From: Lacipirellulaceae bacterium
GTDB lineage: Bacteria > Planctomycetota > Planctomycetia > Pirellulales > Lacipirellulaceae
Direction of reading: 5' to 3'
Length of the DNA stretch: 64,000 nucleotides
Assembly: GCA_040218535.1 (NCBI GenBank)
Contig: JAVJRG010000012.1
Coordinates: forward strand, 1,488,001-1,552,000
In this document: one piece after another, positions 61,396 to 63,016 of the stretch
How the letters are laid out: each line of letters opens with the position of its first letter
How positions within the stretch are numbered: position 1 is the first letter of the stretch
Made by a program: the position numbers and the translations under genes
The notes under the pieces: model-generated
What the model saw: the letters and a program-made list of their open reading frames with translations, nothing else
Database searches by the model: none
Told to the model about the DNA's origin: nothing

Positions 61396-61445
61396 GTGTA
61401 GGGTAGAGATGTTCTAGGCGAAATAGCTTCGTGGCAAATTATTAG

Positions 61446-61465
61446 CCCCGGCGTTTACGCCGGGG
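61446..61465. repeat. REP-like hairpin 1
   Basis: CCCCGGCG, loop TTTA, CGCCGGGG: a perfect 8-bp stem, preceded by ATTATTAG. The same TTAG foot is seen at hairpins 2 and 3. A lone matching right arm followed by CTATTAAT occurs at 61638-61654. Confidence 0.85.
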
Positions 61466-61712
61466 AGGCAAGCTGGAAATCCAGTCGTTCGAGCGGAAAG
61501 TTCAGCGTACCGGCGGCGTTTTATCGAGACCGAAATCTAGCCGCGGCCTCGTTTTGTCTAGGTTCGTGGGCGACCTCGGCAATACGCCGCCCGCAGTCGA
61601 CGTTCTCTGCTCGGTCGATGCTCTCGGATCCACGTTCACGCCGGGGCTATTAATCTAGTATGTGGTTTGTGCCTCATGGCTCGTGGATCAGTATTCCCGA
61701 GAAAATTGTTAG

Positions 61713-61732
61713 CCCCGGCATTTATGCCGGGG
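61713..61732. repeat. REP-like hairpin 2, upstream of the transposase
   Basis: CCCCGGCA, loop TTTA, TGCCGGGG: perfect 8-bp stem, preceded by TGTTAG. It lies 68 nt before the transposase start and is the mirror of hairpin 3. Confidence 0.85.
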
Positions 61733-61800
61733 TATTCTATCGACTAACAGTTCGCTAGCCCCGCTCACGGGTCTTATCTTTGTTCACGCTTGAGCCAATC

Positions 61801-62229
61801 ATGTCGCGCAACTACTACAGCGAAATCAACCTGCACATCGTTTGGCACACCAAGGAAAGTCAACCAGCCCTGATCAACGAAGTCGAGAAAGCAACTCATC
61901 AGTGCATCCGTCAACGAGTGATCGACACGCCCGACGCGTTCATTCATGAGATCGGCGGAATCAACGATCACGTTCACCTCGCCGTTACCATCGCACCGAC
62001 GATCCTGGTAAGCAATTTCATTGGTCAGCTGAAAGGTGGTTCGGGGCATGACGCGAATCAAAAGCTCGGTCGCAAAGTTATTCAGTGGCAGGCAGGCTAC
62101 GGGGTAGTGAGTTTTGGCAAGCGTGATTTGCCTTGGGTGATCAAGTATATTCGCAACCAGCGCGAACATCATCGCGTGGGTAGTATTCATCAGCGGTTGG
62201 AAACAATTGAGCAGCGAGAAGACCCGTAA
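61801..62229 (+). CDS. tnpA: IS200/RAYT-type Y1 transposase (TnpA-REP)
   Basis: The 142-residue protein belongs to the Y1_Tnp single-strand transposase family: NLHIVWHTKE strand, HUH motif NDHVHLAV (His57, His59), then WQAGYGVVSFGK and KYIRNQREHH with the likely nucleophile Tyr116. Members of the IS200 group move as single-stranded DNA by cutting at hairpins; RAYT relatives act on REP sequences. ATG 61801 is chosen (TTG 61780 extends it by 7 codons). No TnpB is nearby. The flanking hairpins make this a candidate active or domesticated REP transposase. Confidence 0.9.
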   Translation: MSRNYYSEINLHIVWHTKESQPALINEVEKATHQCIRQRVIDTPDAFIHEIGGINDHVHLAVTIAPTILVSNFIGQLKGGSGHDANQKLGRKVIQWQAGYGVVSFGKRDLPWVIKYIRNQREHHRVGSIHQRLETIEQREDP

Positions 62230-62261
62230 ACGGGCCTATTTGGTGCCGCTATCGAACTGGA

Positions 62262-62281
62262 CCCCGGCATAAATGCCGGGG
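62262..62281. repeat. REP-like hairpin 3, downstream of the transposase
   Basis: CCCCGGCA, loop TAAA, TGCCGGGG: perfect 8-bp stem, followed by CTAATAACA. On the other strand this reads TGTTATTAG before the hairpin, so it is an inverted partner of hairpin 2. The 24 nt from TTAG through the stem are identical between hairpins 2 and 3 in opposite orientation. Confidence 0.85.
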
Positions 62282-62331
62282 CTAATAACATTTCAAATTT
62301 TAGGCCAGTCTTTTCTCGCAGGAGCCTCCCC

Positions 62332-62790: not shown

Positions 62791-62838
62791 TTGCCGCTGC
62801 TGTCTCTGCGCGAAACTGATGTGGCCCACAACTTTTTT

Positions 62839-62929
62839 AGCCACAGATATTACGGATGACACGGATCATATTGGCGGGCAAGTCTGACTCCGCTCTCAAA
62901 AAATCCGTGTCATCCGTGCAATCCGTGGC
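62839..62929. repeat. Palindromic element, family H
   Basis: Left arm 62839-62866 (AGCCACAGATATTACGGATG...) and right arm 62903-62929 (...CCGTGCAATCCGTGGC) pair with few mismatches. The phrases CACAGAT and ATCCGTG are a common repeat type in environmental bacterial genomes. It lies between the unknown small gene and ybaB. Confidence 0.82.
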
Positions 62930-63016
62930 CCAAATTACGGATTGCCTCTCCAAACTGAGAGAAACCCGATACAATGCGAGCAGGACATCTAACTGATTGC
63001 GATCGAGGAGAGGGAT

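Follow-up and report, generated by a model that had tools for sequence, protein, structure and literature searches.

We propose that tnpA, a single-copy gene predicted to encode a class 1 Y1 transposase in a 64,000-nucleotide stretch of a Lacipirellulaceae bacterium genome (the window), sits inside two nested sets of inverted hairpins and that its product works in trans on scattered paired-hairpin elements with the same ends, an arrangement resembling a REPtron. We assign this reading a probability of roughly 0.7. It draws on direct observation of the anatomy of the locus, conservation of the nested layout, dispersal of the hairpins, compensatory change in their stems, co-occurrence of hairpin and gene across genomes, and purifying selection on the gene; binding, the position of cutting and mobilization by TnpA would follow by analogy with related enzymes.

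In the window, groEL is followed by the tnpA region and then by a hypothetical gene (Table 1). The Y1 transposase that an earlier, sequence-only reading of this DNA had recognized is present: the protein has an HUH motif (H57/H59, in NDHVHL), W96-Q97 and the catalytic Tyr116 in YIRNQREHH, and it matches Pfam Y1_Tnp (7.5e-20) and NCBIfam transpos_IS200 (72.4 bits, cut-off 55). The gene is bracketed by an exact inverted identity of 24 nt, TTAGCCCCGGCATTTATGCCGGGG, at 61709-61732 on the + strand and 62262-62285 on the - strand; the folding energy as single-stranded DNA is -10.8 kcal/mol (z -4.5) for the left stretch and -10.6 kcal/mol (z -4.2) for the right one. The inverted 24-nt pair claimed earlier is thus real, with its left partner at 61709 and not at 61442. 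The 61442 hairpin starts a separate element (61439-61653), so the left hairpin named in that reading is the end of a neighbor. There are accordingly three good hairpins near tnpA, not two (61442, 61709 and 62262), and all three fold as single-stranded DNA well below shuffled sequences.

Table 1. Features of the tnpA region, in positions of the window
Feature	Position	Strand	Sequence, basis or remark
tnpA, Y1 (HUH) transposase, 142 aa	61801-62229	+	Pfam, NCBIfam, AlphaFold
Outer left REP-like hairpin	61706-61732	+	foot TTGTTAG + CCCCGGCATTTATGCCGGGG; inverted partner 62262-62288
Outer right REP-like hairpin	62262-62288	-	CCCCGGCATAAATGCCGGGG + CTAATAA; - strand foot TTATTAG
Inner left hairpin, imperfect in the window	61757-61774	+	AGCCCCGCTCACGGGTCT; fold weak
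Inner right hairpin, imperfect in the window	62220-62237	-	AGACCCGTAAACGGGCCT; overlaps tnpA stop codon; fold weak
Non-coding paired-hairpin (REPIN-like) element, ~215 nt	61439-61653	+	shared palindromic core; right hairpin truncated
Left hairpin of the non-coding element	61442-61465	+	TTAG + CCCCGGCGTTTACGCCGGGG
Degraded right hairpin of the non-coding element	61633-61654	-	CGTTCACGCCGGGGCTATTAAT; inverted repeat and alignment

The non-coding element stands directly upstream of the tnpA unit. It matches our sequence model R1 over model positions 2-212 (97.5 bits, E 1.8e-27), folds as single-stranded DNA with a z of -3.8, and begins with a CGTTTACG variant of the hairpin in the same orientation as that at 61709. 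Of 24 ends compared in this genome, 12 have T, 7 A, 3 C and 2 G as the foot base ahead of TAG, with TTA preceding it, so the foot is TTANTAG. The tetranucleotide is therefore NTAG rather than the TTAG proposed earlier and, instead of contrasting with the known GTAG as had been suggested, includes it.

Class 1 TnpA_Y1 proteins have the signature Y---Q--HH, whereas RAYTs (class 2) have Y---NP (Quentin 2018, PMC6006769). With DHVH, WQ and YIRNQREHH, the window protein carries the class 1 motifs, and its homologues are of the Y---Q--HH type. It also has the Y---Q and the core-only protein of IS200/IS605 (subclass 1.1). A search of the PDB with a profile of the clade found IS200/IS605 structures, with RayT absent, and the AlphaFold model (pLDDT 88) best matched the TnpA of ISDra2, ISC and IS608, with RayT at rank 30. 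In a tree of 47 rows, the protein groups with its homologues in a single clade (100/98), separate from both IS200 and genes with a YDERYVWD-type tail; long branches come together at the deeper nodes, which leaves the position of this clade with respect to IS200 uncertain. By motif, tree and modeled fold, TnpA belongs to class 1, on the IS200 side, in a clade of its own, and is not a RAYT. The classical RAYT REPtron favored by the sequence-only reading has the layout and NTAG foot described for RAYTs (PMC2817692, PMC8266576), but it is now extremely unlikely, given the missing Y---NP, an E. coli RayT more distant in the tree than any other row by a wide margin, and the low rank of the RayT structure; motif, tree and fold rule out class 2. 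What stands of the likeness to RAYT-REP systems is the organization (a single-copy gene, mirrored footed hairpins and dispersed pairs), and what falls is membership of the RAYT family.

The clade is uncommon, with a scattered distribution in Planctomycetota and a few members in Acidobacteriota. At a strict threshold it was found in 8 of 392 genomes of the phylum, with one match each, and a scan of named genomes gave 26 loci, nearly all in Planctomycetota, a few in Acidobacteriota and one a weak match in a Spirochaete. Pairs of homologous tnpA genes have dN/dS of 0.07-0.10 and are under purifying selection. This genome holds one copy. One relative (G042) holds two, merely 80% alike across about 700 nt, while true IS200-type genes in another (G013) gave six matches of identical score. 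The clade does not behave like an active insertion sequence.

One might nevertheless regard tnpA as the sole surviving copy of an ordinary IS200/IS605 insertion sequence, whose subterminal hairpins resemble the repeats by coincidence. The NCBIfam equivalog score above cut-off, the nearest solved and modeled structures, and the presence of two copies in G042 fit this explanation. Against it, the hairpins form an inverted pair whose feet lie on the outer side at either end, dispersed non-coding copies have the same ends, the G042 copies are only 80% alike, and each positive genome of the phylum has one copy, unlike the six of G013. Copy number and hairpin orientation largely refute it, and we consider it very unlikely. 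IS200/IS605 elements such as IS608 and ISDra2 share the protein fold, HUH, Y---Q and hairpin ends with the window system; they differ from it in that here near-identical copies are absent, the hairpins are inverted and non-coding copies outnumber gene copies.

The hairpin recurs across this 5.36-Mb genome. The 24-nt pattern with up to 3 mismatches gave 18 matches, and a 23-nt version with up to 2 mismatches gave 25, compared to none for the reversed pattern in either search; these counts, like all those from our pattern and model searches, are lower bounds that miss diverged copies. Most matches form mirrored pairs spaced about 90-210 nt apart, and a sequence model search found 11 loci with full-length elements of ~210 nt, that of the window included. 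Seven of the eight elements tested lie outside ORFs of at least 200 aa, compared to 18 of 200 random positions (9%). The genome-wide recurrence and the enrichment in pairs between genes that had been anticipated were thus both borne out. With about 25 hairpin copies and a single tnpA, neither of the two outcomes that would have told against a REP-like family, a lack of further copies or many identical insertion sequences, was found. Chance origin of the hairpins is excluded by the 18 matches versus 0 for the reversed pattern and by the bracketing of homologous genes described below.

The stem is conserved besides the sequence, as indicated by compensatory changes in 6 of its 8 pairs over 24 ends: we counted 12 compensatory cells, compared to 1.8 in shuffles (0/500) and 0-2 in slid controls. 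When RNAalifold was applied to the whole ~210-nt element, covariation contributed almost no energy, and our structural claim is therefore limited to the terminal hairpins.

REP and REPIN families usually exceed 100 copies per genome. The family described here has their palindrome with a conserved foot (NTAG), intergenic location and mirrored pairs at a lower copy number, 25 in this genome and 53 in G046 with the 2-mismatch pattern. Modest copy number counts against the REPtron-like reading, as does the lack of a direct sign of movement: copies are diverged, and no empty site was seen. Among the dispersed copies compared within one genome, the best likeness over the length was ~84%, with no near-identical pair. 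A comparison of the downstream gene and of the region downstream of groEL in relatives revealed no empty site or target signature; synteny is lost in these relatives, and hence there is no clean empty site. Just 3' of groEL in a genome of the same genus (L181, G001), where the window has its tnpA, there is no such gene, and a lone hairpin is followed by CCTAATA (CCCAGCATAGATGCTGGGCCTAATA).

The nested layout is more evident in homologues than in the window. Their mirrored outer hairpins enclose mirrored inner hairpins closer to the gene, namely a AGCCCCGTTCACGGGGCT-type hairpin about -67 from the start codon and a AGCCCCGTAAACGGGGCT-type hairpin downstream, and this inner pair is strong there. 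In a strict test demanding perfect stems, an inverted bracket of at least 85% was found around 13 of 23 homologous genes and around none of 400 random intervals; in most homologues that failed, one arm is imperfect. The outer hairpins are of the TAG-CCCCGGCG or TAGG-CCCGCCG type in the lineage of the window gene (A) and TTTG/TCTG/CTTG-CCACCAGCTTTAGCTGGTGG in its sister (B). The lineage B hairpin was found in 3 of 97 relatives, which are exactly the holders of the lineage B gene (p 7e-6), with 53 copies in G046 and 3 and 2 in the others. Of the 6 genomes that hold the gene of lineage A, 5 have the lineage A hairpin, compared to 13 of the 91 that lack it (p 7e-4). The presence of this hairpin in genomes where no close tnpA was found, such as G031 with 16 matches, counts against the REPtron-like reading.

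Gene-less derivatives of these units also occur. Non-coding lineage B copies in G046 keep the outer and inner hairpins and lack the gene, with differing spacers. In G084 and G042, short internal-deletion derivatives with the same ends adjoin tnpA, and those in G042 include remnants of the tnpA flank. At L027 1501-1923 (G003), the C-terminal part of tnpA with the catalytic Tyr is lost, and all hairpins (outer, inner and additional ones) remain complete; this locus resembles a step on the way to an element devoid of the gene. A homologue in a member of Terriglobia (L096 3001-3423) has Phe at the position of the catalytic Tyr (WVIRFVRNQKEHH) and retains mirrored hairpins.

A ~125-nt palindromic core, CGACCGAG...CGAGGTCGAAA...TTTCGACCTCG...CTCGGTCG, is common to elements with two kinds of terminal hairpin. 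This genome has 11 such elements with CCCCGGG ends, including the one beside tnpA, and at least 18 (L149-L166) with ATAG-CCCAGGGT...ACCCTGGG ends, which match the hairpins that flank other Y1 genes of the same genome. Beside the CCCAGGGT hairpin of one of these genes (L021, about 1341-1395; Y1 gene at C12:279428) lies a short tandem AACCCTGGGTAATT repeat. The core also occurs in G001, G004, G010, G023 and G031, and that of G031 has, by eye, matching G:C replacements in all four arms. That a single core has two kinds of end may mean either that ends have been exchanged or that the core itself has a function. Simple mobilization by tnpA leaves this sharing unexplained, a further point against the REPtron-like reading. 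An alternative is that the elements are MITE-like double-stranded DNA elements moved by an unrelated transposase, with tnpA as passenger or target. Such elements could have the observed length of 180-330 nt, the inverted ends, and a core common to differing ends. Yet the flanks inspected have no target duplications, the ends are footed hairpins as with HUH enzymes, and gene and hairpin co-occur across genomes, all of which make this explanation highly improbable.

The ends of sister Y1 genes coincide with a known Rfam family. Acido-Lenti-1 (RF01687) is a predicted RNA of unknown function (PMC2864571), and its model matches the hairpin-CTAN-hairpin ends of these genes on both sides, mirrored, as in L038, L032, L035, L043, L045, L031 and L047. 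Matches to this model, many of them paired in mirror orientation at a distance of about 150 nt, were found in 64 of 97 relatives and in none of 14 control genomes, and its presence tracks that of a Y1 relative (57 of 64 versus 7 of 33, p 3e-11); Acidobacteriota were searched in single genomes. These matches indicate that Acido-Lenti-1 is probably the end of a mobile DNA rather than an sRNA, a possible explanation for this Rfam family. The opposite inference would be that all of these palindromes are host structures, such as terminators, mRNA stabilizers or ncRNAs, with a transposase merely among them. The listing of Acido-Lenti-1 as an sRNA speaks for host structures, as do the intergenic location of the hairpins, which would fold as RNA too, and the age of the copies. 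Host structures would not explain the mirrored bracketing of tnpA in distant genomes, the change of hairpin type together with the transposase lineage, or feet mirrored at both ends, for which a terminator has no need, and we therefore find this possibility unlikely.

The HUH mechanism is established for IS608, ISDra2 and the E. coli TnpA_REP. By analogy, the REPtron-like reading predicts that a TTANTAG hairpin would fold once the DNA becomes single-stranded, as at a replication fork, and that a TnpA dimer would bind it. The NTAG foot might then guide the choice of cut site, and Tyr116 would nick and rejoin the strand. Short elements of two to four hairpins could be moved or copied in trans in this manner, with the gene itself seldom moving. 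The two lineages with differing feet (TAG versus TTG) make direct tests of the guide model possible.

The system has much in common with RAYT REPtrons, including a single-copy, conserved HUH-Tyr gene amid inverted palindromes that have an NTAG-type foot on their 5' side (PMC2817692, PMC3116915, PMC6006769, PMC8266576). As in REPINs and BIMEs, mirrored palindrome pairs are intergenic and derivatives of the gene region lie inside pairs, and the TTTA loop is shared with the Marinomonas Mb REP. It differs from RAYT REPtrons in its class 1 motif (Y---Q--HH instead of Y---NP), in a foot with a variable first base and TTA before it, in the nesting of outer and inner hairpins, and in a sister lineage with TTG instead of TAG. 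Subclass 1.2 TnpA_Y1 proteins, found mainly in Cyanobacteria and Bacteroidetes with no REPs reported (Quentin 2018, PMC6006769), share DH[IV]H (here DHVH), WQ, Y---Q--HH, low copy number and the absence of insertion-sequence behavior. In contrast to them, the window clade has mirrored NTAG-type hairpins, as do most of the sister, subclass 1.2-like genes inspected in the window's order. The window protein falls in a separate clade and lacks the YDERYVWD-type tail of these sister genes, its nearest outside relatives; we infer that this tail is the published ~30-aa C-terminal domain of subclass 1.2. TnpA_Y1 class 3 (PMC6006769) is likewise found mainly in Planctomycetes and Acidobacteria, and its genes are flanked by atypical hairpins with further copies in the genome. 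It has a longer protein, a CnGA foot and Y----Q; the feet (NTAG or TTTG) and the motif (Y---Q) seen here rule it out. A study of GTAG repeats noted numerous genes for tyrosine transposases in Rhodopirellula baltica, together with corresponding repeats at their flanks (Di Nocera 2013, PMC3733652). This is a partial precedent in a planctomycete; the text does not tell class 1 and RAYT enzymes apart, and some of these transposases may overlap with the window clade.

A clade of class 1 enzymes that has mirrored, dispersed hairpins of its own could represent an intermediate or a second origin of REP enzymes, and bears on how IS200-type transposases turned into domesticated ones. To our knowledge, a link to REPs had previously been drawn for no enzymes other than those of class 2 (RAYT) and, on a tentative basis, class 3. 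We lean towards the view that REPs and REPINs arose on the IS200 side independently of RAYTs, and that a planctomycete and acidobacterial radiation of class 1 enzymes, each with its own hairpin type, may drive families of nested four-hairpin elements, of which Acido-Lenti-1 would be one end.

The window also contains, at 62836-62935, an intergenic inverted repeat of the ATTACGGATGACACGGAT / ATCCGTGTCATCCGTGCAATCCGTGG type, which is unrelated to the REP-like hairpins.
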